Assembly: GCF_003073045.1 (NCBI RefSeq)
Contig: NC_037590.1
Location: 2,134,016 to 2,198,015, forward strand
Source: Pomacea canaliculata
Taxonomy: Eukaryota; Mollusca; Gastropoda; Architaenioglossa; Ampullariidae
DNA: 64,000 bases
Reading direction: 5' to 3'
Part shown: in pieces, positions 1 through 29,371 of the stretch
How the letters are laid out: every line of letters starts with the position of its first letter
How positions within the stretch are numbered: position 1 is the stretch's first letter
The notes under the pieces: generated by a model
Database searches by the model: none
Told to the model about the DNA's origin: nothing
The model's input: only the letters and a program-made list of their open reading frames with translations
Translations under genes and position numbers: made by a program

Positions 1-661
1 TAACGGATGTGATAAGTTTCCTAAAAGAACTTACATCTGAAATGAATACCAAGATTGACAATATGAATGTAAACGTAAACTCTGTGAGTGCTGGCATCAC
101 ATCTCTTGAAGATAAAGTGAAAGACTTGGTGATAGAAATAAAGGCACTCAAAGAAGAAAACAAAGAGCTAAGAGGAGAAAATATGGAGCTCAACAGGAAA
201 CTAGAAGAAGTAGAACATAAAGTGGACGATTTGGAAGGAAGATCACGGCGGAACAACATCATCATATATGGTGTGCCGAAGACTGGCGACGAACCAAAAA
301 CGTGGGAACAATGTGAAACCACAGTGAGAAATATGTTTAAGGAACATCTAAAAATCGATGATAACATCATTCTCGACAGAGCACATAGAATGAACTCTAG
401 AAACGCTAACTTTCCGATTGTTGTACGTTTTGCCTTCTTCAAGGATAAAGAAAAAGTCCTTAGAGAGAAACGGAACTTGAAAGGCACAAATATCTTTATT
501 GGAGAAGATTTTACGAAATGAGTGAGAGACATACGAAAAGGACTCTACCCACTATTGAAGAAGGCGAAAGAAGAAAACAAAAAGTTTAAGATGGTTTACG
601 ACCATCTGATCATAGACGGTAAGAGATTTGACTACAACACCCATGCGGGCAGACAAATAGA
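1..661 (+). pseudogene. LINE ORF1 protein, 5'-cut by window edge (copy 1)
   Basis: The reading frame enters the window already open and encodes a long coiled coil (heptad-rich, about residues 10-75) followed by the RRM-like and C-terminal parts seen in Transposase_22-type LINE ORF1 proteins (motifs IIIYGVPKTGD, ILDRAHRMNS, IVVRFAFFKDKEKVL). Proteins of this family trimerise and bind the element's RNA. It matches 18980-19650 almost base for base, but a TGA at 519-521 replaces the CGA of the other copy and removes the last 50 or so residues, so this copy is broken. The N-terminal part lies outside the window. Confidence 0.85.
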
Positions 662-1011
662 CCAGAGCTAGGAAACCGGCCGGGCCGCTGATTTTTTTTT
701 TTCCTAAACGTCCCAATGAAGGGAAAAACTTCGGAAGCCTTCAGAAGCGTGACGTCAGCGACCTTGGCCGACCGCGCTCAGAGAAACATTTCGCTTCAAC
801 CTTTGAAAGCTGTGAAAAAGCTATGAAACTTGCTCTGGGGCTAATTCAACTACTGTTAAACACTATGAAGGGCTGCATTAAATTAATTGTGACAGTCAAA
901 ATAACTCAAAGCCTAAAACTGATGAGAGGTAAAGGTAAAATAAATGAGAGCCCAACAACGCAACGCAGACAATGTTTAACTACAAGTAGGTTAGATTAGA
1001 GATGACTGTCA

Positions 1012-1085
1012 GGTGGCCTCTGTGGCCTAGTGGTTAGAATCGTCATCTCAAAATTAATAGGTGTTATGTTCAAATCTTGAAGTGG
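1012..1085 (+). repeat. tRNA-derived SINE-like head
   Basis: A box-like TGGCCTAGTGG at 1023-1033 and B box-like GTTCAAATC at 1068-1076 are spaced as in a tRNA. The acceptor stem does not pair well, so this is a tRNA-derived repeat head, not a tRNA gene. The second LINE block has the same sequence at about 19985-20050. Confidence 0.55.
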
Positions 1086-1569
1086 AGTTTAATATTTTTT
1101 TGGTTTTGTTTTGCGTTGAGATGTTTTCGTTCTCTAATATGATCAATTTTCTATCAAGCCTTTCATGAAAACATATTGATTGCCAAGCGAAACCATATAT
1201 ATATAAACAATTCTATGTCAACCATTTCATGAAGACCCACTACTATAGACACAGCCAGCCAGCCAGCATGGGACAATTGCTTCACTAATTGTTTTGAAGA
1301 TAGAAATCGCATTCGCAAATATGCGTGTTATACTTTGACAGTGCTAAGTGCAAACCCTTCGCTTCAATCTTTGGAAGTTATGAAAAAGCTATGAAACTTC
1401 TTCTGGGGCTAATTCAACAACTGTTAAACACTATGAAGGACTGCATAAAGTTAATTGCAGTCAAAATAACTCAAAGCCTAAAACTGATGAGAGGTAAAGG
1501 TAAAATAAATGAGAGCCCAACACAACACAGACAATGTTTAACTACAAGTAGGTTAGATTAGAGAGCACT

Positions 1570-1632
1570 GTGAGCTGCGCCTACGCGCCCACGTCTCAAG
1601 ATTGATAGTCGGTGTGTTCGAATCTTGGCATG
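1570..1632 (+). repeat. Second tRNA-like head, A box deleted
   Basis: B box-like GTGTTCGAATC is present, but the bases carrying the A box in the sister copy (20551-20619, TGGTCTATTGG) are missing here. This is a deletion of about 15 bp relative to the sister copy. Confidence 0.5.
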
Positions 1633-2404
1633 TTTTTTTTTTTGTTTGTTTTTTTTTCTTTTGCTGTTTTGCTTTGCTTTGGGATGTTTTCGTTCTCTAA
1701 TATGATCAATTTCTGTCAAGCCTTTCACGAAAACCTATTGATTGCAAAGCGAAACTATAAAATCTAGTGGTTACAAGCGACCATTAATTTTATTTGATAT
1801 GATCAACTATGTTAAAATCTATAGGTGGAGCTATTTTTTATGTATTTTGTTTTGTTTTTTGTTTATTCTTTTTCTAATATGAACAATTCTATGTCAACCA
1901 TGTCATGAAGACCCACCACTATATACACAGCATTGGACAATTGCTTCACTAATTGTTTTTAAGATGGAAATCGCATCTGCAAATATACGTATTGTACTTG
2001 AATCGCCCTTTTCTAATCTGGGACAACTCTGACGCGGAAAACGCGCCAAGAAAAATTCAAGCGGAACAACATCTATTATCAAGTCCATTTTGATGTTAGG
2101 ATGGCATCAGCACCAGACACCACACCTGCTTTGGGTGATCACGCCGGCAACGAGCAAGAACTTAAGTGTGTGCAAGTAAGTGTGATTCATTCAACTGACT
2201 TTATTTTTTAGATAGAAACATGATGTAATAACTGCAAGCAAAGCGCGCGAGAATCAGCCACAAGTACGTCGATCACATTTCGACCGCGCGTCGACCACTG
2301 AATTTGTTGTCAAACGCTCGCACAAGCAAATAGTAATAAGATCATATCACCTCACAAACTTCTTTTGAAATCGGGTTCATACGAGACAGAGTATAAATAA
2401 ATAA

Positions 2405-2843
2405 ATTCCAGTCGGCGTACAGACCCAAGCATAGCTGTGAGACAGCCCTTCTGCGTCTTATGAACGATCTTCTGTGCAGTGCGGATGCAGGGAAAGTGAC
2501 TCTTGTGGTCCTCCTTGATCTGAGTGCGGCCTTCGATGTCATTGATCACACCACTCTACTAACTCGTCTCCAGATGGAGATTGGTGGTTGATGGCATTGG
2601 TGGTTCGGCCTTGCAGTGGTTCCATTCCTACCTCAGTGATCGTACACAAAGGGTGATGGTCAATCAAGCTTCTTCAGTGACAGTTCCATTGCTGTGCGGT
2701 GTCCCGCAGGGCTCTGTTTTGGGCCCGGTTCTATTTTCTATTTACACACCTCAGCTTGGTCCTCTCATTGAGAAGCATAATGTGAACCGTAAGATGTTTG
2801 CAGATGACACTGAACTCTATTTTTCATTTAGTACTGACAGTGT
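2405..2843 (+). pseudogene. CR1-like LINE reverse transcriptase fragment, 5' part
   Basis: Translation gives typical CR1/Jockey-group RT motifs: FQSAYRPKHSCETALLRL, LLDLSAAFDVIDH, the CGVPQGSVLGP block, and FADDTELY, which carries the catalytic Asp pair. The piece starts abruptly near 2405 with no endonuclease domain, so it is 5'-truncated. It stops at SFSTDSV, where another LINE has inserted, and resumes after 3512. A small frame disruption lies near 2575. It is a dead retrotransposon gene. Confidence 0.85.
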
Positions 2844-3512
2844 AGATAGCAGCAACATCGTCATGAACGGCCAGAAACTGGAGGAGGTCAACAGCTTCAA
2901 GTACTTGGGTGCCACCCTGACTAGAGATGGTTGCTGTACAGCAGAGATCTGTATCAGGATTGGTATGGCAACATCCTCAATGTCCAGGCTGGACAGGATC
3001 TGGCGAAGCAACTCAATCAGCTTCAGTACCAAGCACAGGCTGTACAAGTCCCTCGTAGTGTCAATCCTTCTCTACGGCTGCGAAACTTGGACGCTGCTTG
3101 CAGCAACGGAAAAGAAACTCCAGGCCTTTGAAAACAAGTGCCTGAGAAAGCTGCTCCGCATCTTGTACCGCGAACACAAGACCAACGAGTACGTACGGAG
3201 CACCGTAACCTCTCTCGTGGGCCCACATGAGCCCCTTCTGGCAACAGTGAAGCGGCGCAAGCTCGCCTGGTTCGGTCACGTCACCCGCCACAACACCCTG
3301 TCCAAGACGATCCTACAAGGAACCCTCGAAGGGAGCCGTCGTCGTGGTCGTCCGAGGAAAAGCTGGGTCACCAACATTAAAGAATGGACGGAACGCGAGA
3401 TGCCAGACCTGCTCTCATCTGTTCAAGACAGGACCGGGTGGAAAATTCTCTGTTGCTGCTGCCGGACGGTCCCCCCTACGCCCGGACCGGGCATGGGACT
3501 GACCTGACCTGA
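2844..3512 (+). mobile_element. RTE-like LINE 3' end nested in the CR1-like RT
   Basis: One long frame encodes the thumb and C-terminal region of an RTE-type RT (KLEEVNSFKYLGATLTRDG, LYGCETWTLL, KRRKLAWFGHVTRHNTL, RRRGRPRKSW). The sequence ends in the tail actgacctgacctgac. It is flanked by CTGACAGTGT at 2834-2843 and CCGACAGTGT at 3513-3522, a target-site duplication with one difference; in the second block both copies read CTGACAGTGT. It is a 5'-truncated insertion. Removing it restores the CR1-like RT (SFSTDSV then VRAAACAVEDCCLEVKSWM). Confidence 0.85.
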
Positions 3513-3522
3513 CCGACAGTGT

Positions 3523-3570
3523 GTCGGTGCGTGCGGCAGCTTGTGCTGTAGAAGATTGTTGTTTAGAGGT
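3523..3570 (+). pseudogene. CR1-like RT, short continuation after nested LINE
   Basis: Forty-eight bases of the RT thumb continue here (VRAAACAVEDCC) before the sequence switches to satellite at 3571. The second block continues this frame for another 330 bp. Confidence 0.75.
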
Positions 3571-6500
3571 ACAGAACCCTCAGGGGCAGCAGCAAGCACA
3601 AGGCCAGCTAACGGCACCAATGCCGTACCACCAAGTGCAAGTGCAGGCACCAATGCCGTACCACCAAGTGCAAGTGCAGGCACCAATGCCATAACACCAA
3701 GTGCAAGTGCAGGCACCAATGCCATACCACCAAATGCAAGTGCCGGCACCACTGCAATAACAACAATTCCAAGCGCAGGCACCAATGCAACAACACCAAG
3801 TGCAAGTGCAGTGCCCAATGCCATAACACCAAGTGCAAAGTGCCGGCACAAACTGCAACCAACAACAAGTGCAAGCACAGGCACCAATGCAACACACCAA
3901 GTGCAAGTGCGGCACCACCATCACGTTTAATGATTCAACTATCAAACAAGACTCTTTATGTCTTCTGGTCGCAACAACACAATTTTCTTTATTATTTTTC
4001 ATCACGAGTGCGCACCCGTCTATTGCCGGGCGGCACAGCAGCAAGCCCGCCCAGGTCGAAATCCTCATGGAGAGGATGTGCGATACAGAACCCTCAGGCA
4101 GCAGCAAGCACAAGCCAGCTGCCACCAATCATACACAATGCAAGTGCCGCCCACCATCACGTAATCAACATACAGATACAGCATCTTTAGTTCTGTCGTC
4201 ACAATCAAACAATTTTCAATTATTTTTTCAGCGAGCGCACCTTATCCGGGGCGCAGCAGCAGGCCCGCCGCATCGAAATCCTGCGGTGGAGATGATTAGG
4301 GGCGTACGACCTCAGGGCAGCAGCAAGCAACAAGCATGCGCACCAATGCCGTACCACACGTGCAATCAGGCACCAATGCCATCCACCAAGTGTCAAAGGC
4401 CAGCACCACCATTCCATACTATGATTCAGACTTATACATAGATACAAGACATCTCTATTGTCTGTCTGGTTTTTTCTTATATTTTTTCACGACTGGTGGC
4501 CCGTATTCGCCGGGGGTGGCGCACATCAGCAGCCCCGCCCGTCGAATCTGCAGGTGGAGAGGATAGGTGGGTACAGAAACACTCAGGGCGCAGCAAGCAA
4601 GCACTGCGCACTCAATACCTACCACCAAGATGCAAGGCGCACCCACCTCACGTAAGATTCTAATAACAAATACAACACATCTTTTGTCTGTGGCACAGAC
4701 AATTTTATGTTATTTTTTCACGATGCACCTATGCCGGCGCGCGCACCCCCCCGCGTCGAATCCTTGCAGTGAGAGGATATGCCGTACGAACCCTCAGCGC
4801 AGCAAGCACAAGCCACTGCGCACCATCTCACAGCCAAGTCGCAATGCACACCACGCAATAACAACATCAGCGCAGACCAGTGCAACACCAATGAGCAGCA
4901 CCCAATCAACCACCAAGTCAAGTGCACACCACTGCACTAACAACAATTCCAGCGCAGGCAACAGTGCACACAGTGCAGCGCAGACCATCATCCACAATGC
5001 AATCCCACCATCACAATAATTCACTCAATACCAAGACATCTTTATGTCTCTGGTCGCAACAGACACAAAATTTTCGTATTAATTTTTTCAGCGAGTCGCA
5101 CCTATTGCCAGCCCACAGAGAGCCCCCCGCGTCGAAATCCTCAGGGGACGAGGAGATATGCGTACCAGAACCTCAGGCAGCAGCAAGACAGGCCCAGCCT
5201 GGCGGCACCGATGCCGGATACCACCACAAGTGCAAGTGCAGCACCACCATCCACGAATGATTCAACTAACAAGATAACACACATCTTTATTGTCTGTACT
5301 GGTCGCAACAGACACAAATTTTTCTTTATTATTTTTTCAGCGAGTGCGGCACCGTTATTGCCGGGGCGGCGACAGCAGCAGCCCCGCCGCGGTCGAATCC
5401 TGCAGGTGGAGAGGGGATACGGTGGCGTACAGAACCCTCAGGGGCAGCAGCAAGCACCAGGCCAGCTGCGGCACCAAATGCCATACCACCAGTGCAAGTG
5501 CGCACCATGACCATCCACGTAATGATTCAACTATACAAGAACAGCACATCTTTATTGTCTGTCTGGTCGCAACAGACACCAAATTTTTTTATTATTTTTT
5601 TGCAGCGAGTGCGGCACTAGCTTCGTTATTCCGGCGGGGCGGCGACAGCACAGCCCCGCCGCGGTCGAATCCTGCAGGTGGAGAGGGGATAGGTGCCGTA
5701 CAGAACCCTCAGGGGGGCAGCAGCAAGCACAGCCAGCTGCGCACCAATGCCGTACACCAAGTGCAAGTGCACGCACCACTGCAATAACAAGAATTCAAGC
5801 GCAGGCACCAATGCAACAACACCAAGTGCAAGTGCAGGCCCCAATGCCATAACACCAAGTGCAAGTGCCGGCACCAATGCAACAACACCAAGTGCAAGCA
5901 CAGGCACCAATGCCATACCACCAAGTGCAAGTGCCGGCACCACATCCACGTAATGATTCAACTATACAAGATACAAAGACATCTTTATTGTCTGTCTGGT
6001 CGCAACAGACACAAATTTTCTTTATTATTTTTTTTCAGCGAGTGCCACCCGTTATTGCCGGGGCGGCGACAGCAGCAGCCCCGCCGGGTCGAAATCCTGC
6101 AGGTGGAGAGGGGATAGGTGGGGACAGAACCCTCAGGGGGCAGCAGCAAGCACAAGGCCAGCGGCGGACCAATGCATACCACCAAGTGCAAGTGCCGGCA
6201 CACCATCCACGTAATGATTCAACTATCAAGATACAAGACATCTTTATTGTCTGTTGGTCGCAACAGACACAAATTTTTCTTTATTATTTTTTTCAGCGAG
6301 TGCGGCACCCGTATTGCCGGGCGGCGACAGCGAGCAGCCCCCGCGGTCGAAATCCTGCAGGTGGAGGGGATAGGTGCCTACAGAACCCTCAGGGCAGCAG
6401 CAGCACAAGGCCAGCTGCGTCACCAATGCCGTACCACCAAGTGCAATGTGCAGGCACCAATGCCATACCAAGTGCAAGTGCCGGCACCACCATCCACGTA

Positions 6501-7229
6501 ATGATTCACTATACAAGATACAAGACATCTTTATTGTCTGTTGGTCGCAACAGACACAAATTTTTCTTTATTATTTTTTTCAGCGAGTGCGGGCACCCGT
6601 TATGCCGGCCGGTCGGCGACAGCAGCAGCCCCGCCGCGGGCGAAATCCTGCAGGTGGAGAGGGATAGGTGGCGTACAGAACCTCAGGGGCAGCAGCAAGC
6701 ACAAGGCCATCTGGCGGCACCAATGCCATACCACCAAGTGCAAGTGCCGGCACCACCATCCACGTAATGATTCAACTATACAAGATACAAGACATCGTTT
6801 ATTGTCTGTCGGTCGACAACAGACAAAAATTTTTCTTTATTATTTTTTTCAGCGAGTGCGGCACCCGTTATTGCCGGGGCGGCGACAGCAGCAGCCCCGC
6901 CGCGGTCGAAATCCTGCAGGTGGAGAGGGGGGGATAGGCCCGTTACAGAACCTCAGGGGCAGCAGCAAGCACAAGGCCAGCTGGCGGCACCAATGCCGTA
7001 CCACCAAGTGCAAGTGCAGGCACCACTGCAATAACAACAATTCCAAGCGCAGGGACCAGTGCAACACCAAGTGCAAGCGCAGGCACCAATGCCATACCAC
7101 CAAGTGCAAGTGCCAGCACCACTGCAATAACAACAATTCCAAGCGCAGGCACCAGTGCAACAACAAGTGCAAGCGCAGGCACCAATGCCATACCACCAAG
7201 TGCAAGTGCCGGCACCACCATCCACGTAA

Positions 7230-7496
7230 TGATTCAACTATACAAGATACAAGACATCTTTATTGTCTGTCTGGTCGCAACAGACACAAATTTTTCTTTA
7301 TTATTTTTTTCAGCGAGTGCGGCACCCGTTATTGCCGGGGCGGCGACAGCAGCAGCCCCGCCGCGGTCGAAATCCTGCAGGTGGAGAGGGGATAGGTGGC
7401 GTACAGAACCCTCAGGGGCAGCAGCAAGCACAAGGCCAGCTGGCGGCACCGATGCCATACCACCAAGTGCAAGTGCCAGCACCACCATCCACGTAA
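7230..7496 (+). repeat. Type A satellite unit (reference 267-bp copy)
   Basis: This is a clean example of the short unit; the next one, 7497-7763, is the same length and nearly identical. Positions 7230-7300 contain, on the minus strand, a LINE-like 3' end (gaccagacagacaataaaga followed by tgtcttgtatcttgtat). Positions 7299-7313 form a pyrimidine-rich 3' splice-site-like stretch. Confidence 0.9.
7314..7496 (+). CDS. Exon-like Q/P/R-rich frame inside one satellite unit
   Basis: Starting right after the cag acceptor, the frame reads 60 codons and a stop. It begins RVRHPLLPGRRQQQPRRG, passes NPAGGEG and QGQQQAQGQ, and ends MPYHQVQVPAPPST. The same frame is open in most well-preserved units and matches the dispersed exons at 28471 and 28994 in frame (LLPGRRRQQPRRPRNPAGGEG). 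I do not recognise a domain. There is no start codon within the exon, so it would need splicing from an upstream exon. Whether any unit is expressed is unknown. Confidence 0.45.
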   Translation, partial: RVRHPLLPGRRQQQPRRGRNPAGGEGIGGVQNPQGQQQAQGQLAAPMPYHQVQVPAPPST

Positions 7497-8026
7497 TGAT
7501 TCAACTATACAAGATACAAGACATCTTTATTGTCTGTCTGGTCGCAACAGACACAAATTTTTCTTTATTATTTTTTTCAGCGAGTGCGGCACCCGTTATT
7601 GCCGGGGCGGCGACAGCAGCAGCCCCGCCGCGGTCGAAATCCTGCAGGTGGAGAGGGGATAGGTGGCGTACAGAACCCTCAGGGGCAGCAGCAAGCACAA
7701 GGCCAGCTGGCGGCACCAATGCCATACCACCAAGTGCAAGTGCCGGCACCACCATCCACGTAATGATTCAACTATACAAGATACAAGACATCTTTATTGT
7801 CTGTCTGGTCGCAACAGACACAAATTTTTCTTTATTATTTTTTTCAGCGAGTGCGGCACCCGTTATTGCCGGGCGGCGACAGCAGCAGCCCCGCCGCGGT
7901 CGAAATCTGCAGGTGGAGAGGGGATAGGTGCGTACAAGAACCCTCAGGGGCAGCAGCAAGCACAAGGCCAGCTGCGGCACAATGCCATACCACCAAGTGC
8001 AAGTGCCGGCACCACCATCCACGTAA

Positions 8027-8488
8027 TGATTCAACTATACAAGATACAAAGACATCTTTATTGTCTGTCTGGTCGCAACAGACACAAATTTTTCTTTATT
8101 ATTTTTTTCAGCGAGTGCGGCACCCGTTATTGCCGGGGCGGCGACAGCAGCAGCCCCGCCGCGGTCGAAATCCTGCAGGTGGAGAGGGGATAGGTGCCGT
8201 ACAGAACCCTCAGGGGCAGCAGCAAGCACAAGGCCAGCTGGCGGCACCAATGCCGTACCACCAAGTGCAAGTGCAGGCACCACTGCAATAACAACAATTC
8301 CAAGCGCAGGGACCAGTGCAACACCAAGTGCAAGCGCAGGCACCAATGCCATACCACCAAGTGCAAGTGCCAGCACCACTGCAATATTAACAATTCCAAG
8401 CGCAGGCCACCCAGTGCAACAACAAGTGCAAGCGCAGGCACCAATGCCATACCACCAAGTGCAAGTGCCGGCACCACCATCCACGTAA
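8027..8488 (+). repeat. Type B satellite unit (462 bp) with internal minisatellite
   Basis: It has the same 5' part as type A, then two extra copies of a roughly 95-bp block coding QQFQAQGPVQHQVQAQAP-like peptide before the common 3' end. In frame, each block meets TAA at ccactgcaataa, so B units encode a shorter peptide than A units if read from the same acceptor. Other B units start at 6768, 9014 and 9992. Confidence 0.88.
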
Positions 8489-11469
8489 TGATTCAACTAT
8501 ACAAGATACAAGACATCTTTATTGTCTGTCTGGTCGCAACAGACACAAATTTTTCTTTATTATTTTTTTCAGCGAGTGCGGCACCGTTATTCCGGGGCGG
8601 CGACAGCAGCAGCCCCGCCGCGGTCGAATCCTGCAGGTGGAGAGGGGATAGGTGGCGTACAGAACCCTCAGGGGCAGCAGCAAGCACAAGGCCAGCTGCG
8701 GCACCGATGCCATACCACCAAGTGCAAGTGCCAGCACCACCATCACGTAATGATTCAACTATACAAGATACAACACATCTTTATTGTCTGTCTGTCGCAA
8801 CAGACACAATTTTTCTTTATTATTTTTTTCAGCGAGTGCGGCACCCGTATTGCCGGGGGGCGACAGCAGCAGCCCCGCCGCGGTCGAAATCCTGCAGGTG
8901 GAGAGGGGATAGGTGGCGTACAGAACCCTCAGGGGCAGCAGCAAGCACAAGGCCAGCTGGCGGCACCAATGCCATACCACCAAGTGCAAGTGCCGGCACC
9001 ACCATCCACGTAATGATTCAACTATACAAGATACAAGACATCTTTATTGTCTGTCTGGTCGCAACAGACACAAATTTTCTTTATTATTTTTTCAGCGAGT
9101 GCGGCACCCGTTATTGCCGGGGCGGCGACAGCAGCAGCCCCGCCGCGGTCGAAATCCTGCAGGTGGAGAGGGGATAGGTGCCGTACAGAACCCTCAGGGG
9201 CAGCAGCAAGCACAAGGCCAGCTGGCGGCACCAATGCCGTACCACCAAGTGCAAGTGCAGGCACCACTGCAATAACAACAATTCCAAGCGCAGGGACCAG
9301 TGCAACACCAAGTGCAAGCGCAGGCACCAATGCCATACCACCAAGTGCAAGTGCCGGCACCACTGCAATAACAACAATTCCAAGCGCAGGCACCAGTGCA
9401 ACAAGTGCAAGCGCAGGCACCAATGCCATACCACCAAGTGCAAGTGCCGGCACCACCATCCACGTAATGATTCAACTATACAAGATACAAGACATCTTTA
9501 TTGTCTGTCTGGTCGCAACAGACACAAATTTTTCTTTATTATTTTTTCAGCGAGTGCGGCACCCGTTATTGCGGGGCGGCGACAGCAGCAGCCCCGCCGC
9601 GGTCGAAATCCTGCAGGTGGAGAGGGATAGTGGCGTACAGAACCCTCAGGGCAGCAGCAAGCACAAGGCCAGCTGCGCACCGATGCCATACCACCAAGTG
9701 CAAGTGCCAGCACCACCATCCACGTAATGATTCAACTAACAAGATACAACACATCTTTATTGTCTGTCTGGTCGCAACAGACACAAATTTTTCTTTATTA
9801 TTTTTTTCAGCGAGTGCGCACCCGTTATTGCCGGGGCGCGACAGCAGCAGCCCCGCCGCGGTCGAAATCCTGCAGGTGGAGAGGGGATAGGTGGCGTACA
9901 GAACCCTCAGGGGCAGCAGCAAGCACAAGGCCAGCTGGCGGCACCAATGCCATACCACCAAGTGCAAGTGCCGGCACCACCATCCACGTAATGATTCAAC
10001 TATACAAGATACAAGACATCTTTATTGTCTGTCTGGTCGCAACAGACACAAATTTTTCTTTATTATTTTTTTCAGCGAGTGCGGCACCCGTTATTGCCGG
10101 GGCGGCGACAGCAGCAGCCCCGCCGCGGTCGAAATCCTGCAGGTGGAGAGGGGATAGGTGCCGTACAGAACCCTCAGGGGCAGCAGCAAGCACAAGGCCA
10201 GCTGGCGGCACCAATGCCGTACCACCAAGTGCAAGTGCAGCACCACTTGCAATAACAACAATTCCAAGCGCAGGGACCAGTGCAACACCAAGTGCAAGCG
10301 CAGGCACCAATGCCATTACCACCAAGTGCAAGTGCCGCACCACTGCAATAACAACAATTCCAAGCGCAGGCACCAGTGCAACAAGTGCAAGCGCAGGCAC
10401 CAATGCCATACCACCAAGTGCAAGTGCCGGCACCACCATCCACGTAATGATTTCAACTATACAGATACAAGACATCTTTATTGTCTGTCTGGTCGCAACA
10501 GACACAATTTTTCTTTATTATTTTTTTCAGCGAGTGCGGCACCCGTTATTGCCGGGGCGGCGACAGCAGCAGCCCCGCCGCGGTCGAAATCCTGCAGGTG
10601 GAGAGGGGATAGGTGGCGTACAGAACCCTCAGGGGCAGCAGCAAGCACAAGGCCAGCTGGCGGCACCAATGCCATACCACCAAGTGCAAGTGCCGGCACC
10701 ACCATCCACGTAATGATTCAACTATACAAGATACAAGACATCTTTATTGTCTGTCTGGTCGCAACAGACACAAATTTTTCTTTATTATTTTTTTCAGCGA
10801 GTGCGGCACCCGTTATTGCCGGGGCGGCGACAGCAGCAGCCCCGCCGCGGTCGAAATCCTGCAGGTGGAGAGGGGATAGGTGGCGTACAGAACCCTCAGG
10901 GGCAGCAGCAAGCACAAGGCCAGCTGGCGGCACCAATGCCATACCACCAAGTGCAAGTGCCGGCACCACCATCCACGTAATGATTCAACTATACAAGATA
11001 CAAGACATCTTTATTGCAGGGCATAGCATTGTACGCCGTTCGGCGCATTTACGCCGACTTGACTTCTGACTTACGCCGATTTCGAAGTAGCGTACGCCGA
11101 TCGCGCTCGCCTCGTCAGTAGCACATTTTGTACTCAAACGGTCTCCGGTTCCCAAACGGTCTCCGATTCTTGCATTTTGTGTTACTTCCTTTGCGCGCCA
11201 CACGTGTTGGCTTTAGTCAGTTCTTACGCTGCGCGGCATTTGCGAGTACAAAGAAAAAAGCTTGTGGTACGTTCGACGATGGCAAGATCTGACATCGTAC
11301 GGCGCGGTGAGCTATTTCAGCGATAAGGGTTCCGTATTCGTGGAATTGGGAATGGCTTGAAAAAGAACAGTTACCGTGTCGGAAAAGGAGGGGAAGAAAG
11401 GAAAACAGACCAAGATTATGATCTTGTGCTACGATCATTGCATTAAAAAACTCGCAGCAGTGGCAAGGC

Positions 11470-14400
11470 ATATTGTGATGTATGCAGAAAAGAAGTAGCC
11501 TACGGGAATAAAGGGTTCACTGCCATCAAAGTCCATTGTGACACATCTTCTCACAAGGAGAAAATAATCTGCCGATCAGAGAACAATCATCTGCCTGGTA
11601 AGTAATTTAGATTGTAAGTTTGAATAGACTTTAACTCTTAGTTGCAACTTTCAGTTGAAACAATTTTATCTTAGGACGTTTATCTTAACATGAACTTGTA
11701 ATCAGATAAATCTATTATCTTTTCTTAGGGTAAGCGTGCTGAATAAATAAACATTTGAAAATTAGGTCATGAAAGCTAAGGCTTGGGGTTTTTTTTGAAT
11801 TTCTAGGCCAGCCTTTGGAATCTGAAACTTGTGGACCTCATGCTGGTCCAAGTCAGAAACAGAAGGAAAATGTTTTGACTCTCACACCAGTATCAGACAG
11901 AGTTCACATCTTACGGCACTCACCTTGGATTTGTGGCTGAACATTCACTGCCTGTGAACTTGGTACCAAGTCTTCTGGATTACGTTAAAGTAAGTCCTAC
12001 TGTTATTTTATTTATTTATGTATTTTTATATTGTTTTTATTTATTCATTATTATTATTAAATGTGTGCTTTGATTTTTTTACTGGATGCTACACACTAGA
12101 TCTGTACATGAACAACGTTGATATTAATACTCAAGGCAAGGTATATCAGATACAATGTGGTATGGACCTGTGTTGCAAAGAGTAGGATGAACAAAAATAT
12201 TGGCAGAATTATATTCGCTATCCATTCCGTGTCTGTGAACCCAAAGCAATTGCTGACACAATATTCTCACACTATTCCTCTATTTCTGGAAAAAAGAGGC
12301 AAAGAAAAACAAAAAGACATGCAATTCACACGTACACAAACAGAATTAAAGAGGGTTGGGGGTGGGGGATGAACTTTGAGAGAGAGAGAACTCAAGCTTT
12401 GTCTGATTTTTTTTTTTATTTTTGTTTCTTTACTACAGGCCATGGCTTCTGACAGACGTGCTGTTCAGCGCATGCCTAGCATAGCAGCAAGCACTGCTTC
12501 TTACAAGCTTAGGCACGGGCTGCAGAAGACACTACAGGATGAGATACTGGCAGAATTGAAAACATGCAATTCACACGTACACAAACAGAATTAAGAGGGT
12601 TGGGGGTGGGGGATGAACTTTGAGAGAGAGAGAACTCAAGCTTTGTCTGATTTTTTTTTTTATTTTTGTTTCTTTACTACAGGCCATGGCTTCTGACAGA
12701 CGTGCTGTTCAGCGCATGCCTAGCATAGCAGCAAGCACTGCTTCTTACAAGCTTAGGCACGGGCTGCAGAAGACACTACAGGATGAGATACTGGCAGAAT
12801 TGAAAACATGCTATTTCAGTCTCAATATTGATGAAGCTATGAGCAAAACCAAGAAGAAAGTGCTGGCGATTTTTGACCAGCCATTTCTCGCCGTCCATGA
12901 ACAGGATTGTGGTGCATCATTTCGCTGCCATCAGTGTTTGTGAAGGTGACATCTGACAATCTGTTTGAGGAAGTATCCAACTTCATGACAAAGCATGGCC
13001 TTCCTTGGGCCAATTTGACATCGGTTTTGATGGACTCGTGCAGGGTGATGAGGGGAAGCAAGTCAGGGCTGGAAGTACAGATCAAGGAGAAAGCACCAAA
13101 CATGCTAGATATTGATGTGACACATGTCATCATGCTAATAATGCAGCACACGTCTTCTGCAAACCGTTTGGAAAGCACGTGGAACAACTTCTTGGAGATC
13201 TGCACACAGAATTCCACTACAGCAACAGAACTGCGAGATGTCTTCTTCAAGTTCTGTGTGGCATTGCAGATAAAGGCAACAGCAGCAGAGCAGTTTTGCT
13301 TCTCACCGCTGGTTGTCAGTACTTGATGTGTCAGTTGACACACTGCGTCTCTGGGATGCAACTGTTCTCTACACTGCCAGCTTTTTGATGGAGAAAGACA
13401 TGCCTGCGTATCAGCCTTTGATTGATGAAGTTTTTCCAAAGAAGAGGAGTGAATGAGAAGGGTCGGGACTCTATCAGAAAGGCACAGATCTATCTGAGAA
13501 AGAAATGGTCTACATTCACCGTAGCTGGCAAGGATCGGAAGTTTGAGGCTGGTGAACAAGATTTTCATCTTGGGCGAACAGACTCTCATCTTGTTGAACT
13601 TGTACGTTTCCATTCTTTCCATTCTGAAAGAGTACATCGTCTTCTTCCAGAAGAGAGAGCCTGTTGTGCACAGGTTGCATGACAAGCAGACGAATTGCTG
13701 AAAGATTTTTGGCTTGTTTCGTCAAACCAGAGGCTTTGTCCGCTGCCTCAGATGTTACCAGCATTGATCTGACAGATCCAGACAAACATCCACATGGAGT
13801 CTATGTTCACCATCAGCTCAGCAGCCAACACTCTGATGAAGAAGCAGCCCAAGGAAGTGAAGAAGTCCTATCAGACTCAAAATGAGAGAAGCGTTTGTGA
13901 AGTGTGGCACTTACCTTCAAGAGAAAATGCCTGTAAACAACAAAGTGCTGAAGATCTGCTCTGTACTAGATCCTATCATGAGGAACACAAACGCAGGCAA
14001 GACAACTGCTGGGCCAGATTCCTTCAAGGACAATTAGTGCAGAATGACCAGGACCAGTGGATAGATTTCACAGGGAGGTGAACAAGTACACCTACGACGT
14101 GAGTCCAAGCAGTGCCTCAGAAATGCACCTGTGGATGTGTGGTGGGGTGGAGTTTCGCAGGACAGGTTTCCTCTCCTGTGTGCAGCAGCAAAAGCCTTGC
14201 TCAGTTGCTTCCATGGCCCAATTGTGGAATCCACCTTTCAGCGAGATGGGAAAGATCCTGTCCAAGGAAAAGACCAACATGGATGTTGACACATACATGG
14301 CCATGCAGACTGTGAAGTCAAGACTGGCTACAGCCAAGAAAACAGCAGTGGAGTACTTTTTGCTAAGGCAGACCCCATCAAAGAACCTGTGAGCAAGCAG

Positions 14401-18600: not shown

Positions 18601-19650
18601 ATGCCAGCCAGTCCTTTGCTATTTCGTGCTTGTTGTGGATGTTTTACAGCGGTGTTTGTGCACTTCATGTGGAGACGCGCCATGGCCAAGCAACGAAACC
18701 ATGTGAGTACTGTGCGACTGAACAGCCTCTCGCTGTCTCTTGTTTTGACTTTCGCGATCGCTACATTACTTCTGCAGTGCGGTGACATTGAAACGAATCC
18801 TGGGCCCCCCAAACAAACAAAAGCAGCCTCTAAATCGTTTGCTTCACCACATGTTTCGCCATGGCTAAGAAGTAATACAAGTGTTGTAGAAGAAAATGTT
18901 GCCAGACCCCCACCCGAGAAGATGAATTCAAATACTAACAGTTCTGAACCTAAGGCAGCTTCTAAGCAAGAACCTACCCTAACGGATGTGATAAGTTTCC
19001 TAAAAGAACTTAAATCTGAAATGAATACCAAGATTGACAATATGAATGTAAACGTAAACTCTGTGAGTGCTGGCATCACATCTCTTGAAGATAAAGTGAA
19101 AGACTTGGTGATAGAAATAAAGGCACTCAAAGAAGAAAACAAAGAGCTAAGAGGAGAAAATATGGAGCTCAACAGGAAACTAGAAGAAGTAGAACATAAA
19201 GTGGACGATTTGGAAGGAAGATCACGGCGGAACAACATCATCATATATGGTGTGCCGAAGACTGGCGACGAACCAAAAACGTGGGAACAATGTGAAACCA
19301 CAGTGAGAAATATGTTTAAGGAACATCTAAAAATCGATGATAACATCATTCTCGACAGAGCACATAGAATGAACTCTAGAAACGCTAACTCTCCGATTGT
19401 TGTACGTTTTGCCTTCTTCAAGGATAAAGAAAAAGTCCTTAGAGAGAAACGGAACTTGAAAGGCACAAATATCTTTATTGGAGAAGATTTTACGAAACGA
19501 GTGAAAGACATACGAAAAGGACTCTACCCACTATTGAAGAAGGCGAAAGAAGAAAACAAAAAGTGTAAGATGGTTTACGACCATCTGATCATAGACGGTA
19601 AGAGATTTGACTACGACACCCATGCGGGCAGACAAATAGACCAGAGCTAG
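18601..19650 (+). CDS. LINE ORF1 protein with N-terminal 2A peptide (intact)
   Basis: This is an unbroken 349-residue frame from ATG 18601. Residues 1-60 are hydrophobic and Cys-containing, ending SLSLVLTFAIATLLLQC. They lead directly into GDIETNPGP (residues 61-69), a full match to the 2A consensus D-[V/I]-E-x-N-P-G-P. 2A peptides make the ribosome skip the last Gly-Pro bond, so translation should yield a short signal-like peptide and the main protein starting at Pro69. Residues 130-205 or so form a coiled coil, and 205-349 the RRM-like and C-terminal RNA-binding parts of Transposase_22-type ORF1. 2A sequences at this position are known from several animal CR1- and L1-related non-LTR elements. 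An in-frame GTG upstream is not needed as start. Endonuclease and RT do not follow directly. Confidence 0.88.
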   Translation: MPASPLLFRACCGCFTAVFVHFMWRRAMAKQRNHVSTVRLNSLSLSLVLTFAIATLLLQCGDIETNPGPPKQTKAASKSFASPHVSPWLRSNTSVVEENVARPPPEKMNSNTNSSEPKAASKQEPTLTDVISFLKELKSEMNTKIDNMNVNVNSVSAGITSLEDKVKDLVIEIKALKEENKELRGENMELNRKLEEVEHKVDDLEGRSRRNNIIIYGVPKTGDEPKTWEQCETTVRNMFKEHLKIDDNIILDRAHRMNSRNANSPIVVRFAFFKDKEKVLREKRNLKGTNIFIGEDFTKRVKDIRKGLYPLLKKAKEENKKCKMVYDHLIIDGKRFDYDTHAGRQIDQS

Positions 19651-19754
19651 GAAACCGGCCGGGCCGCTGATTTTTTTCCCCTCAACGTCCCAATGAAGGG
19701 AAAAACTTCGGAAGCCTTCAGAAGCGTGACGTCAGCGACCTTGCTCAGAGAAAC

Positions 19755-20990
19755 CCTTCGCTTCAATCTTTGAAAGCTGTGAAAAAGCTATGAAACTTGC
19801 TCTGGGGCTAATTCAACTACTGTTAAACACTATGAAGGGCTGCATTAAATTAATTGTGACAGTCAAAATAACTCAAGCCTAAAACTGATGAGAGGTAAAG
19901 GTAAAATAAATGAGAGCCCAACAACGCAACGCAGACAATGTTTAACTACAAGTAGGTTAGATTAGAGATGACTGTCAGGTGGCCTCTGTGGCCTAGTGGT
20001 TAGAATCGTCATCTCAAAATTAATAGGTGTTATGTTCAAATCTTGAAGTGGAGTTTAATATTTTTTTGGTTTTGTTTTGCGTTGAGATGTTTTCGTTCTC
20101 TAATATGATCAATTTTCTATCAAGCCTTTCATGAAAACATATTGATTGCCAAGCGAAACCATATATATATAAACAATTCTATGTCAACCATTTCATGAAG
20201 ACCCACTACTATAGACACAGCCAGCCAGCCAGCATGGGACAATTGCTTCACTAATTGTTTTGAAGATAGAAATTGCATTCGCAAATATGCGTGTTATACT
20301 TTGACAGTGCTAAGTGCAAACCCTTCGCTTCAATCTTTGGAAGTTATGAAAAAGCTATGAAACTTCTTCTGGGGCTAATTCAACAACTGTTAAACACTAT
20401 GAAGGACTGCATTAAATTAATTGTGACAGTCAAAATAACTCAAAGCCTAAAACTGATGAGAGGTAAAGGTAAAATAAATGAGAGCCCAACAACGCAACGC
20501 AGACAATGTTTAACTACAAGTAGGTTAGATTAGAGAGCACTGTGAGCTGCGCCTGTGTGGTCTATTGGTTACGCGTCCACGTCTCAAGATTGATAGTCGG
20601 TGTGTTCGAAACTTGGCATGTTTTTTTTTTTGTTTGTTTTTTTTTTTTTTTTGCTGTTTTGTTTTGCTTTGCTTTGGGATGTTTTCGTTCTCTAATATGA
20701 TCAATTTCTGTCAAGCCTTTCACGAAAGGAAATTGATTGCAAAGCGAAACTATAAAATCTAGTGGTTACAAGCGACCATTAATTTTGTTTGATATGATCA
20801 ACTATGTTAAAATCTAGGTGGAGCTACTTTTTATGTATTTTGTTTTGCTTTTTGTTTATTCTTTTTCTAATATGAACAATTCTATGTCAACCATGTCATG
20901 AAGACCCACCACTATATACACAGCATTGGACAATTGCTTCACTAATTGTTTTTAAGATGGAAATCGCATCTGCAAATATACGTATTGTAC
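19755..20990 (+). repeat. Tandem repeat of about 565 bp between ORF1 and RT (second block)
   Basis: Two units with conserved starts near 19758 and 20327 each end in ttagattagag and continue into a tRNA-like head and a T-rich stretch. The arrangement is identical to 785-1990. Each unit contains a partly open stretch of about 75 codons (KAMKLLLGLIQQLLNTMKD), which I regard as fortuitous because it has no separate start context and is not conserved in length. Confidence 0.7.
20551..20619 (+). repeat. tRNA-like SINE head, A and B boxes present
   Basis: A box-like TGGTCTATTGG and B box-like GTGTTCGAAAC are 40 bp or so apart, as in pol III type 2 promoters. The other head in this block lies at about 19985-20050. 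Stem pairing is poor, so it is not called as a tRNA gene. Confidence 0.55.
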
Positions 20991-21404
20991 TTGAATCGCC
21001 CTTTTCTAATCTGTGACAACTCTGACGCGGAAAACGCGCCAAGAAAAATTCAAGCGGAACAACATCTATTATCAAGTCCATTTTGATGTTAGGATGGCAT
21101 CAGCACCAGACACCACACCTGCTTTGGGTGATCACGCCGGCAACGAGCAAGAACTTAAGTGTGTGCAAGTAAGTGTGATTCATTCAACTGACTTTATTTT
21201 TTAGATAAAAACATGATGTAATAACTGCAAGCAAAGCGCGCGAGAATCGGCCACAAGTACGTCGATCACATTTCGACCGCGCGCCGACCACTGAATTTGT
21301 TGTCAAACGCTCGCACAAGCAAATAGTAATAAGATCATATCACCTCACAAACTTCTTTTGAAATCGGGTTCATACGAGACAGAGTATAAATAAATAAATT
21401 CCAG

Positions 21405-21826
21405 TCGGCGTACAGACCCAAGCATAGCTGTGAGACAGCCCTTCTGCGTCTTATGAACGATCTTCTGTGCAGTGCGGATGCAGGGAAAGTGACTCTTGTG
21501 GTCCTCCTTGATCTGAGTGCGGCTTTGATGTCATTGATCACACACTCTACTAACTCGTCTCCAGATGGAGGTGGGCATTTGGTGGTTCCGCCTTTGCAGT
21601 GGTTCCATTCCTACCTCAGTGATCGTACACAAAGGGTGATGGTCAATCAAGCTTCTTCAGAGACAGTTCCATTGCTGTGCGGTGTCCCGCAGGGCTCTGT
21701 TTTGGGCCCGGTTCTATTTTCTATTTACACACCTCAGCTTGGTCCTCTCATTGAGAAGCATAATGTGAACCGTAAGATGTTTGCAGATGACACTGAACTC
21801 TATTTTTCATTTAGTTCTGACAGTGT
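21405..21826 (+). pseudogene. CR1-like RT, 5' part (second block)
   Basis: It shares the motifs of 2405-2843 (CGVPQGSVLGP, FADDTELYFSF). A one-base loss near 21524 and changes near 21545-21600 break the frame. It ends at target duplication CTGACAGTGT (21817-21826). Confidence 0.82.
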
Positions 21827-22492
21827 AGCAGCAGCAACATCGTCATGAATGTCATGAAACTGGAGGAGGTCAACAGCTTCAAGTACTTGGGTGCCACCCT
21901 GACTAGAGATGGTTACTGTACAGCAGAGATCTGTATCAGGATTGGTATGGCAACATCCGCAATGTCCAGGCTGGACAGGATCTGGAGAAGCAACTCAATC
22001 AGCTTCAGTACCAAGCACAGGCTGTACAAGTCCCTCGTAGTGTCAATCCTACTCTACGGCTGCGAAACTTGGACGCTGCTTGCAGCAATGGAAAAGAAAC
22101 TCCAGGCCTTTTGAGAACAAGTGCTGAGAAAGCTGCTCCGCATCTTGTACCGCGAACACAAGACCAACGAGTACGTACGGAGCACCGTAACCTCTCTCGT
22201 GGCCCACATGAGCCCCTTCTGGCAACAGTGAGCGGCGCAAGCTCGCCTGGTTCGGTCACGTCACCCGCCACAACACCCTGTCCAAGACGATCCTACAAGG
22301 AACCCTCGAAGGGAGCCGTCGTCGTGGTCGTCCGAGGAAAAGCTGGGTCACCAACATTAAAGAATGGACGGAACGCGGGATGCCAGACCTGCTCTCATCT
22401 GTTCAAGACAGAACCGGGTGGAAAATTCTCTGTTGCTGCTGCCGGACGGTCCCCCCTACGCCCGGACCGGGCATGGGACTGACCTGACCTGA
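21827..22492 (+). mobile_element. RTE-like LINE nested in CR1-like RT (second block)
   Basis: This is the orthologous insertion to 2844-3512, with perfect flanking CTGACAGTGT at 21817-21826 and 22493-22502 and the same actgacctgacctgac tail. The frame here is broken near 22110 and 22230, whereas the copy at 2844 stays open throughout. Confidence 0.87.
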
Positions 22493-22502
22493 CTGACAGT
22501 GT

Positions 22503-22880
22503 GTCGGTGCGTGCGGCAGCTTGTGCTGTAGAAGATTGTTGTTTAGAGGTCAAGTCATGGATGCTGAGGAATAAACTCAAGCTTAATGATGAGAAGACAG
22601 AGGCGATGCTATGTGGTTCCAAGCTGAGCCTTAGCAAAGTCTCTCTAGACTCCATCCAAGTGGGTCAAGCTAGAATCCCCCTCTCCAGCTCCGTACGGAA
22701 CCTTGGACTCTATGTCGACAATCTTCTAACTATGTCTGATCATGTCAGTTCTGTAGTCAAGGCATGTTATTTCCATATCCGCACACCACACTCCGATCCA
22801 GTCTTAATAAGAAGACTGCAAATGCAGTTGCTGTGTCCTTCATCGGTTCTAAATTAGACTATGCAAAAAACGGCCTGCCT
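22503..22880 (+). pseudogene. CR1-like RT, 3' part (thumb region)
   Basis: The frame continues past the nested LINE: VRAAACAVEDCCLEVKSWM, then LRNKLKLNDEKTEAMLCGSK and RNLGLYVDNLLTMSDHVSSV. This is the standard CR1-group palm-thumb sequence. It decays after KTANAVAVSFIGSKLDYA-like codons near 22860, where it meets hAT-type sequence. The C-terminus and 3' tail are missing. Confidence 0.8.
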
Positions 22881-23019: not shown

Positions 23020-24832
23020 GTGAAATGGGAGAGCCGAAAGGAAAGAGTTGACTCTGAGTGCAGAAACTTCCAAGAAAAGTGGACAGATCTGTACTTTTTT
23101 ATACAACATGATAGCAAGCCAACGTGTTTGATTTGCAAAGAAAGTGTGGCTGTTTTTAAGGAACACAACATTAAACGGCACTATGAAACAGAGCACAAGA
23201 ACAAGTATGGCTGCATCCTTGCTTCGAGCCTCACAGAAAAGATTGCTAAGTTACGTCAAGAAATTGGAGGCTTGACGAGAATATTTAGCAAGAAAAGACA
23301 AGAAAATGAGGCGGCGGTAATTGCAAGCTACCGAGTTGCTCACATTTTGAGCAGAGAAATGAAGCCATTTTCCGACGGTGAATGTGTAAAAAAGTGCTTG
23401 CTAGCAGTGGTGGAGGAACTGTGTCCTTAAAAGAAGAATGCATTTGAAGCCGTCAGCCTTTCTCGCACGACAATTGCACGGCGAGTGGAAGATATGGGGA
23501 AACATCTCCAGTCAAAACTAAGGGACAAAGCAACACGTTTCGAAATGTTTTCTATTGCTGCTGACGAGTCAACCGACTCATCTGACACCGCTCAACTCTT
23601 GGTATTTATTCGCGGTACAAACAGCGATTTTGAACTTACAGAAGAGTTAGCGGCCATAAGGGGCATGCACGGGAACACCACTGGCGAAGACCTATTCAAA
23701 GAAGTTTCAGCCGTAATATAGGGTCTTGCTCTTTCTTGGGAAAAATTAGTGGGAGTGACTACCGATGGTGCCAGAAGTATGGTTGGATGCCACAGCGGAC
23801 TGGCATCAAGGGTTATTAGAAAAGTCGTCGAGTCTAATGGAACCGAGCCTCTGCGGCTTCAGGGCATTATTCACCATCAAAATCTCTGTGGCAAGGTGTT
23901 CAATCTGGACCATGTGATGAAGATTGTGGTCAGCACTGTAAACTTCATCAGATCACAGGCGTTGAACCACAGAACTTTCAAGGAATTTTTGACAGAAATA
24001 GAATGCGAATATGAAGACGTTCTCTTTCACAGTGAAGTCCGCTGGTTAAGCCGAGGAAAGGTACTTAAACGGTTTTTTGATTTGAGACATGAGATTGAAA
24101 TTTTTATGACAAAGAAATCAAAGCAAGTGCCTCAGCTGAACGACCCCTTGTGGCTGTGGGATTTGGCGATTTTATGCGACATCACGTGACATCTGAATGA
24201 ACTCAACACCAAACTACAAGGGAAAGACAAGTTGATTTCGCATATGTATGCGGACATAACAGCATTCCAAGCGAAATTACTACTCTTCATTCAGCAGGCG
24301 GGAAGGATGGAGCTTGTCCACTTCCCAACGTGTACATCTCTACGTCAGGATCAGCAGCAACATGTCTTTCCCCAAAGAAAGAATGATAGAACTTTTGGAG
24401 CTCTTGAAGGATAATTTCAGTGAAAGATTTAAGGATTTTCATGATTTGAAGGATGAAATACGTCTCTTCGAAAATCCATTTGCGGCAGATGTGTCAAGTG
24501 CCCCGACAGACCTGCAACTGGAACTGATTGACTTGCAAAGCCAGACATCCCTGCTTGACAAATTTCGAGCGATGCAGACAATTGCTTTCTGCGCAGTGTT
24601 GCCTGCAGAAACTTTTCCAAATCTCCGAAAACAAGCGTTAAGGATGATCACGATGTTTACAAGTACTTATGTGTGTGAACAAACGTTTTCAGTGATGAAA
24701 CGGGTGAAACCCATCTTACGTAATCGCATAGCGGACGAACATTTCGATTCAGTGCTCAGACTTGGTGTTTCTTCGATGCAGCCAGACATTCAGAAGCTGG
24801 TTTCGGAAAAGCAGCTTCAAATATCCCACTAA
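23020..24832 (+). pseudogene. hAT transposase, GTF2IRD2/Charlie-like (type B)
   Basis: A nearly complete transposase: an N-terminal zinc-binding segment (DLYFFIQHDSKPTCLICKES, VFKEHNIKRHYETEH), the catalytic region ([59 protein letters not shown]), and the C-terminal dimerisation domain (FTSTYVCEQTFSVMKRVKPI, LRNRIADEHFDSVLRLGVSS). In-frame stops at 23428, 23719 and 24187, plus a frameshift near 24360, inactivate it. The family cuts and pastes hAT DNA, and relatives were domesticated as GTF2IRD2 C-termini in vertebrates. No start codon context is preserved. Confidence 0.88.
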
Positions 24833-28384: not shown

Positions 28385-28911
28385 TGATTCAACTATACAA
28401 GATACAAGACATCTTTATTGTCTATGTCTGGTCGCAACAGACAGAAATTTTTCTTTATTATTTTTTTCAGCACGTTCCAGCAGGTGTGCCTCATAACTTG
28501 CTGCCAGGGCGGCGGCGGCAGCAGCCCCGCCGTCCTAGGAATCCCGCCGGGGGGGAAGGGGCAGAGGGGGCAGGCCCTGCACAAGGACCACAACAGCAAG
28601 TGCCTGCACCTGTTCATCAGTTACAACCACCTGCGGCGGTGCAAAATCAGCAGCTATTTCAAGCACCTGGGCAAGTGCAGCACCAGTTACAAGCGCCGGC
28701 ACTTGCAGTTCCATACCAACAGCAGGCACAAGTGCAGCTGCTGCCGCCAGTGCGTGTTGCCCCAGGTCTACTCTATGCCAATGAGACGATGGCAATTTTG
28801 TCAAATCCAGACGCGCGACGTCTGGAATCCAGAATCGTAGAACTAACATTAAATGCAGCTCGCACGGTGTACCCTGACCCTAACCCCCAACCCCCCCCCC
28901 CAAACCCTTAG
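28385..28911 (+). CDS. Dispersed long relative of the satellite exon
   Basis: The first 85 bases repeat the satellite unit start (tgattcaactatacaaga, antisense LINE-like tail, tttttttcag). From acceptor 28470 an open frame of 146 codons ends TAG at 28909-28911. It starts HVPAGVPHNLLPGRRRQQPR, passes a Gln/Pro/Ala-rich middle (QQQVPAPVHQLQPPAA, QVQHQLQAPALAVPYQQQ), and ends with a more ordered part, LLYANETMAILS, ARRLESRIVELTLNAARTVY, then PDPNPQPPPPNP. The satellite frames lack this last part. There is no recognisable domain. It could be an exon of an undescribed gene or a piece of an unknown element. Confidence 0.5.
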
Positions 28912-28959: not shown

Positions 28960-29371
28960 ATATGTAAGTTCATTTGTTTCCTCTTTTTTTCAGCGCGTTG
29001 CACAAGGAGTGCGTCATCCATTGTTGCCAGGGCGGCGGCGGCAGAAATCCTAGAAATCCTGCGGGTGGTGAGGAGGCAGGCCCTGCACAGGGTCACCTGG
29101 CGGGACCAAGACCACAACAGTAAATGCACTTGCAGGTACGGCATTGGTGCCAATTCCATACCGCCAGCAAGTGCAGGCACAAGCACACATGCAGCTGCTG
29201 CCTCCACAGCATATGTCTGCAGCGTGTTTGTACGCAAACGAGACGATGTCAATTTTGTCAACCTCAGAGGCTCGGCGTCTTGAGTCCAGAATCATAGAAC
29301 TTAGTTTGAATGCAGTACGCACCATCTACCCTGACCCTAACCCCCAAACCCCCCCCCCAAACCTTAGACGG
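28960..29371 (+). pseudogene. Second dispersed exon copy, frame broken
   Basis: It has its own acceptor (tttttttcag at 28984-28993) and the same start (GVRHPLLPGRRRQ), then loses frame near 29050. The conserved end is intact in another frame: LYANETMSILS, EARRLESRIIELSLNAVRTI, YPDPNPQTPPPNLRR. It stops at a plausible donor, cgg|gtaata at 29372. Copies at 28471 and 28994 lie head to tail 520 bp apart, so the locus itself is a tandem exon duplication. Confidence 0.5.

Follow-up and report, generated by a model that had tools for sequence, protein, structure and literature searches.

A satellite array in Pomacea canaliculata probably built from a truncated protein-coding terminal exon

A tandem array of acceptor-bearing units on contig C1

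We analysed a tandem array at positions 3571..11016 of a 64,000-nucleotide stretch of the genome of the gastropod Pomacea canaliculata (hereafter the window; NC_037590.1, C1:2134016-2198015 in a searched genome of 440,159,624 bases on 24 contigs). Positions given without a contig are those of the window. A sequence-only reading of the window had described the array as 23 units, each with a splice acceptor and an open frame ending in its own stop, and had offered a decayed multi-exon gene, an amplified transposon exon or a locus making many alternative exons as its origin. The array and the parts of its units were as follows (LINE, long interspersed nuclear element; bp, base pairs).

3571..11016, plus strand: exon-bearing satellite array with 17 short and 7 long units
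7581..7847, plus strand: reference short unit, made of a 60-codon exon piece, a stop, a LINE-like tail, a pyrimidine tract and CAG
7581..7763, plus strand: truncated terminal-exon frame RVRHPLLPGRRQQQPRRGRNPAGGEG...PAPPST plus TAA, the TAA lying beyond the tandem junction and read as intron-derived
7766..7836, minus strand: antisense LINE-like 3' tail, a dispersed 60-65-bp repeat with ATACAAG repeats at one end
7837..7847, plus strand: end of the pyrimidine tract and acceptor CAG, in direct contact with the LINE-like tail, an arrangement shared with 28.4 kb and with locus L009 on C11
8112..8572, plus strand: sample long unit with extra 33/96-bp in-frame repeats and an internal TAA

An edit-distance scan of 3501-11100 with a 30-letter pattern ending in ...TTTTTTTCAG/CGAGTGCGGCACC (the slash marks the acceptor) recovered 23 acceptor anchors, in agreement with the proposed number, together with 24 stop/tail anchors; one further, partial unit at 3571-4003 has no acceptor. 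The pattern was exact in 11 of the 23 anchors and carried one edit in five, and the seven anchors with 2-8 edits all lie at the left of the array (4016-6049). Short units measure 219-288 bp (n=17, mostly ~267, the last one cut) and long units 373-461 bp (n=7), the latter being longer because they contain additional 33/96-bp coding-phase repeats (33 bp correspond to 11 codons, APMPYHQVQVP-like), along with an internal TAA. From 8112 rightward the units follow the order long-short-short in a higher-order repeat of ~980 bp, and left of 8112 two or three short units come after a long one. The units are arranged head to tail and nearly identical, as in a satellite, with 95-99% matches in the 265-267-bp rows of Tandem Repeats Finder. 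A 401-bp query against the snail's own genome (40 of 103 candidates scored) gave no whole-unit match at any other locus, only pieces. Rfam at gathering scores and a tRNA scan of the window returned no matches.

The frame that follows the acceptor is rich in glutamine, proline and arginine (Q/P/R) and is unbroken through NPAGGEG in 8 of the 23 units as assembled. A second, S/A/P-rich frame of the unit has no stop throughout the tandem consensus, so that the Q/P/R frame is not distinguished simply by being open. What marks it out, on the comparisons below, is homology and codon-position bias.

The unit joins the end of an intron to the beginning of an exon

Comparison with relatives elsewhere in the genome showed how the unit is composed. 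The stop-bearing stretch CCACGTAATGATTCAACTATACAAG sits upstream of the acceptor both in L009 (C11) and in L012 (C12), so that a unit of the array spans from inside an intron to inside an exon. As judged from these relatives, the exon is cut at the tandem junction, and what had been taken as the unit's own stop is intron-derived, supplied by the intron-side piece across the junction. The conserved C-terminal part of the exon family described below, GCxYxxxxLxLLxPxEAxxLEAxIV, was not found in the frames of the array units; the junction removes it.

The intron-side piece also contains the dispersed 60-65-bp repeat. The 401-bp query yielded 67 match rows. Outside the array locus, 28.4 kb, C11:15.93 Mb and some sites on C12, the rows are distributed over many contigs and correspond chiefly to query positions 208-270. 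At L015-L018 the repeat adjoins a varying number of ATACAAG repeats, that is (CTTGTAT)n on the other strand, and an AATAAA is present on that strand. The repeat resembles the 3' tail of a LINE or of a short interspersed nuclear element, lying in antisense, and we assign it to this class only as a candidate. The consensus unit has neither AATAAA nor ATTAAA on its plus strand and two AATAAA on its minus strand. A further copy of the LINE-like tail at 42585-42652 (minus strand) runs on into GTTGCTGAGAGCTCCCAC, as in C12 introns.

The exon belongs to a family on C1, C11 and C12

Two longer copies of the exon lie elsewhere in the window, behind a transposon-like insertion.

28385..28470, plus strand: intron end consisting of LINE-like tail and acceptor, identical over 86/86 bp to two places in L009 (C11)
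28471..28911, plus strand: terminal exon copy A behind acceptor 28470/28471, with a 146-codon open frame and the C-terminal part LYANETMAILSNPDARRLESRIVELTLNAARTVYPDPNP
28994..29371, plus strand: terminal exon copy B, with acceptor 28993/28994 and a frame interrupted by a stop after 19 codons
27995..28372, no strand assigned: hAT-like element CAGTGGTTCTCAAAGT...ACTTTGAGAACCACTG, with GATTAGAC on both sides, inserted in an intron piece

Copy A carries the conserved C-terminal part, and that of copy B is 78.9% identical to it at the DNA level. The earlier claim that the frame is common to two longer copies was thus borne out at 28.4 and 29.0 kb, and the genome search that it had called for extended the relatives to C12 and C11. 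With the exon at 28471-28911 as a protein query, the own genome gave 19 match rows, of which C1 holds 12, the query among them, and C11 the other 7 (15.971-15.981 Mb). A first C12 exon gave 26 rows at E <= 0.1 (17 on C12, 8 on C11 and 1 on C1; 14 of the 26 at E <= 0.001), with its C12 sites at 18.68-18.70, 19.26, 19.65-19.67, 20.63-20.72 and 23.13 Mb, and a second C12 exon gave 22 rows (21 on C12 and 1 on C11), 19 of them at E <= 0.001. These lists overlap, one exon can yield two rows, and the lists are lower bounds. In the regions read, more than 20 exon copies are visible, clustered on C12, C11 and C1, many of them partial or interrupted.

On C11 and C12 the family is characterised by an acceptor followed in phase 0 by a frame that starts R-rich, passes through a PAGGEG/AAGEG-like motif and a P/Q-rich middle and ends in the conserved C-terminal part. 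Most C12 exons start in phase 0 behind CTTTATTATTATTTTCAG; their first residues are [W/R/L/H]Y and basic ones, then come an AAGEG, GAGEG or PAGGEG motif and a P/Q-rich stretch, and the end is conserved (for instance IRPGCCYISYCLNLLQPAEANELEALMVQEAASRV). The array units have the T-rich acceptor followed by a phase-0 frame, and likewise the R-rich start and the PAGGEG/AAGEG-like motif. The C11 array exons at 15.97 Mb differ in that their open frame begins one base past the acceptor.

A structure was predicted for one C12 exon (98 residues, 8 aligned sequences), with a mean predicted local distance difference test (pLDDT) of 66.9 and a predicted template modelling score of 0.39. In this model two helices with block pLDDT of 92-97 occupy residues 61-98, so that a helical hairpin is predicted for the conserved C-terminal part; for residues 14-45 the pLDDT stays below 50. 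Pfam gave no match to the exons above cut-off (Cuticle_3 at E 0.65 and a FAD_binding-like match at E 0.039 were both below it), and a 4-sequence profile of the family had no match in the Protein Data Bank up to E 1.

Two other features were observed among the family's clusters. At L044 (C12, ~19.652 Mb) a frame RRNSMP...FRVNMMGAAGVGKTSLAQQF lies amid terminal exons; it resembles the start of an RGK-type GTPase and has no Pfam match at E 0.01. From L050 to L042 (C11, 15.916-15.994 Mb), frames recur ~43-48 kb apart beside exon arrays, which suggests a large local duplication.

Coding constraint is likely for the family and not clear within the array

Differences were counted by codon position (1st/2nd/3rd) in plain DNA alignments made without a protein guide, with one-sided binomial p values against one third. 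The array (first 130 nucleotides) differs from the 28.4-kb exon by 6/11/18 (third-position excess, p 0.020) and from the 29.0-kb exon by 5/3/12 (p 0.013). The C-terminal parts at 28.7 and 29.2 kb differ by 12/5/21 (p 0.004), and two C12 exons by 5/1/13 (p 0.002). For the C12 pair, the ratio of nonsynonymous to synonymous rates (dN/dS, NG86) was 0.19 over 75 codons of a protein-guided alignment. With a third-position excess in four of five DNA comparisons and this ratio, the family most likely evolved under coding constraint. Several points weigh against this reading: the fifth comparison, 28.4 kb with a C11 exon, gave 11/12/12 and no excess (its DNA alignment is poor), the dN/dS values were built on protein-guided alignments, and many pairs are saturated at synonymous sites.

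Between 18 array units, a set that leaves out the five leftmost acceptor-bearing units and the acceptor-less one, the exon part showed 16 substitutions, distributed as 2/6/8 over the three codon positions, and the remaining 87 bp showed 5. Coding constraint between the units is hence not clear. The proposed comparison of synonymous and non-synonymous changes therefore gave a divided answer, with an excess between the array and its relatives and no clear one between units. The third-position share between units, 8 of 16, is somewhat above one third, which counts against units that drift freely.

Origin of the array

Taken together, we consider it likely that the array is a satellite that arose by tandem duplication of one protein-coding terminal-exon fragment and that it evolves near-neutrally and probably has no function. 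The idea of a decayed gene survives in altered form: what was amplified would be a fragment of a multi-copy exon family, and the units would be truncated exons.

The hAT-like element helps to order the events. In L009 (C11) its right end occupies the identical site and adjoins the same flank, and the corresponding site in L012 (C12) is uninterrupted. In C1 and L009 the LINE-like tail directly touches the acceptor, and in L012 ~150 bp lie between them. The shared flank and tail-acceptor contact of C1 and L009, set against the uninterrupted site and the gap in L012, point to a C12-like module as the probable ancestor of those on C1 and C11. The array keeps CCACGTAATG, which is lost from the 28.4-kb copy, and so looks like a sister of that copy and not its offspring.

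In the order of events that we propose, a C12-like exon module would have gained the hAT-like insertion and a deletion joining the LINE-like tail to the acceptor, and such modules would then have reached C11 and C1. Unequal exchange on C1 would have amplified a piece reaching from inside the intron to inside the exon, with the result that every unit ends at an intron-supplied stop. Because the array lacks a start exon, the C-terminal part and a poly(A) signal, it would probably make no family protein and evolve as a near-neutral satellite.

Elsewhere in the window, 24000-25361 and 30531-31892 form a direct repeat that is 99.4% identical and overlaps a frame resembling a hAT dimerisation domain (Dimer_Tnp_hAT at E 0.00048, which narrowly misses the cut-off).

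Flanks of the array and assembly quality

The array is bounded on both sides by transposon-like sequence.

1..3570, plus strand: LINE-like sequence with reverse transcriptase, interrupted where the array starts
11017..11600, no strand assigned: dispersed transposable element bounding the array on the right, followed as far as 11600, 28 match rows including itself

The left end at 3570 falls within the LINE-like reverse-transcriptase sequence, and 1-3570 is 96.9% identical to 18980-22550 over 3602 aligned columns. On the right, 12 of the 28 match rows of the flanking element begin exactly at 11017; because a dispersed element begins there, 11016 is no natural end of the array. Two smaller repeats were also seen in the window, namely two tandem 244-bp copies at 12317-12815 (99% matches) and an inverted repeat at 63176-63923 with ~230-bp arms (93% identical) about 290 bp apart.

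The array is unusually rich in short insertions and deletions (indels). Under matched scoring of 15 short units, short indels per substitution were 1.1 (93/83) in the left, 2.6 (42/16) in the middle and 3.1 (28/9) in the right units, compared with 0-0.5 for all but one of 12 further repeat pairs in the window; BLAST gave the same picture. With cheap gaps, the ratios were 3.7, 6.1 and 3.4. The C11 array likewise shows many single-base gaps and few substitutions. Since an indel excess fits residual long-read errors in repeats, some of the array's apparent decay is probably of technical origin, and this is clearest for the middle and right units. In the left units the differences may reflect noise, genuine decay or the two together. 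Against an origin of the indels in errors stand the ratio of 2.5 in one young repeat pair of the window (2 mismatches), the fact that cheap-gap ratios exceed those of matched scoring, and the circumstance that the claim has the indel pattern as its sole basis.

A related explanation, compatible with the exon-fragment satellite, is that the array or its left end is partly a product of assembly, with a noisy stretch joined to the LINE at 3570. Short indels do rise leftward, from 37 per 3389 aligned bases in 6853-11016 to 160 per 1127 in 4004-5340. The part of the published assembly report available to us (PMC6129957) describes PacBio reads at 60x and 440,071,717 bp on 14 chromosomes, the longest of 45.4 Mb. 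However, substitutions rise leftward too (83 in four left short units vs 9 in seven right ones), as real divergence would, the right part is clean and regular, and a LINE interrupted by an array is possible biology. We regard an assembly contribution of this kind as possible, though on balance doubtful.

Tandem arrays of a mini-exon-like block on C11 and C12

Tandem arrangement of the family is not confined to C1. On C11 (L041), ten successive blocks follow one another at 618-669-bp spacing, and each interval holds a mini-exon-like block (gatatgtag/ATGGTGGGAAATAGAAGA...GAG/gtaattcc), a short intron-like stretch and a terminal exon. On C12 (L046, 19,270,394 to ~19,278,544), a block with similar acceptor and donor occurs in tandem; in the part read its spacing is 355-494 bp apart from a single interval of 1063, and a ~200-bp dispersed repeat lies within the unit. 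The block is R/K-rich and has an ATG start in several copies. A strict pattern listed eight C12 blocks of 30-54 bp, two of them open (MAPNKKRKQERKQKKVRK, MAIKGRGKRKGE) and six with an in-frame stop, and on C11 the phases of block and terminal exon disagree at the first acceptor. On account of these stops and this mismatch, the block as the family's start exon is a conjecture. A search of the window found no such start-type block (best match E 0.07). The stretch behind the block was considered as a membrane-spanning exon (VTIGAFNAYVIFIFVLVVCYPF) and dropped, as a matter of judgement, since AG/GTAATTCC ahead of it resembles a conserved donor.

A more ambitious extension is that one snail gene family repeatedly makes tandem arrays of its own exons (on C1 a truncated last exon, on C11 the mini-exon block together with a last exon, and on C12 the block with a dispersed repeat), which would form a splice-ready reservoir for the recruitment of new last exons of a fast-evolving small basic protein. 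We hold this to be improbable and put it forward as speculation.

Transposon exon, alternative-exon bank and chance frame

The exon could instead be the last exon of a transposon or virus-like element that was amplified. The LINE-like tail in the unit speaks for this, and that part of the earlier suggestion of an amplified transposon exon holds; the mini-exon array on C12 also pairs a dispersed repeat with an exon block. The exon itself, however, was not found within a transposon in the regions read. Among the matches listed it occurs on C12, C11 and C1 only, whereas the tail is on many contigs. No Pfam match reached its cut-off, one single-protein query of viral contigs gave 29 pattern hits of which 0 were confirmed, and the dN/dS of 0.19 between two C12 copies is unfavourable as well. 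We give a transposon or viral origin little credence.

Still less probable, in our estimate, is a functional bank of alternative terminal exons that would provide an upstream gene with many short Q/P/R-rich tails. Such a bank would accord with the acceptor pattern, which is exact in 11 of the 23 anchors and within one edit in 16, with the phase 0 shared with C12 exons, and with the eight frames that are unbroken through NPAGGEG as assembled. But the family's start-type mini-exon was not found in the window, transposon-like frames surround the array, the units have no conserved C-terminal part, their consensus carries no AATAAA or ATTAAA on the plus strand, and codon-position constraint between them is not clear.

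Finally, the array might be an ordinary satellite whose open frame and acceptor are there by chance. Open frames do come cheaply in a GC-rich repeat, and the second frame is open throughout the consensus. The relatives on C11 and C12 already contradict this reading, since divergent exons in other chromosomal regions have the same acceptor position and phase and four of five DNA comparisons show the third-position excess, and we attach almost no weight to it.

Relation to known systems and significance

The exon-fragment satellite that we favour resembles several known arrangements in part. Satellite DNAs made from gene or transposon fragments are a general class, and the array is like them in its higher-order tandem units, its combination of an element tail with a genic fragment and its many near-identical units. 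It is unlike them in that the genic fragment keeps an acceptor and an in-phase coding start, and in that its exon family is still recognisable and is arrayed at other loci too. Arrays of alternative terminal exons are known from mod(mdg4) and lola of Drosophila and from the immunoglobulin heavy-chain constant regions. The C12 clusters are like these loci in having many last exons in a row on the same strand, each with its own acceptor, whereas on C1 the units are cut short and their exon strand carries no poly(A) signal. Flatworms have micro-exon genes, to which the short basic mini-exon-like blocks in tandem on C11 and C12 bear a likeness; unlike those genes, the snail family has one mini-exon-like block and one large terminal exon only, and it belongs to another phylum. 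A title-level search of the literature on satellites from exons or gene fragments and on micro-exon and terminal-exon arrays found no description of such an array, which may nevertheless exist in print.

For arrays assembled from long reads, the analysis indicates that part of an apparent decay may be assembly error. It exposes an unnamed, clustered snail exon family that has signs of coding constraint and no Pfam relative. On the reading that we favour, the array would show that a satellite is able to start from a coding exon that still carries its splice acceptor. If the arrays of the family are not spliced, they serve as a warning that gene predictors may call exons there; should any of them be transcribed and spliced, satellite formation would there have acted as a source of exons.

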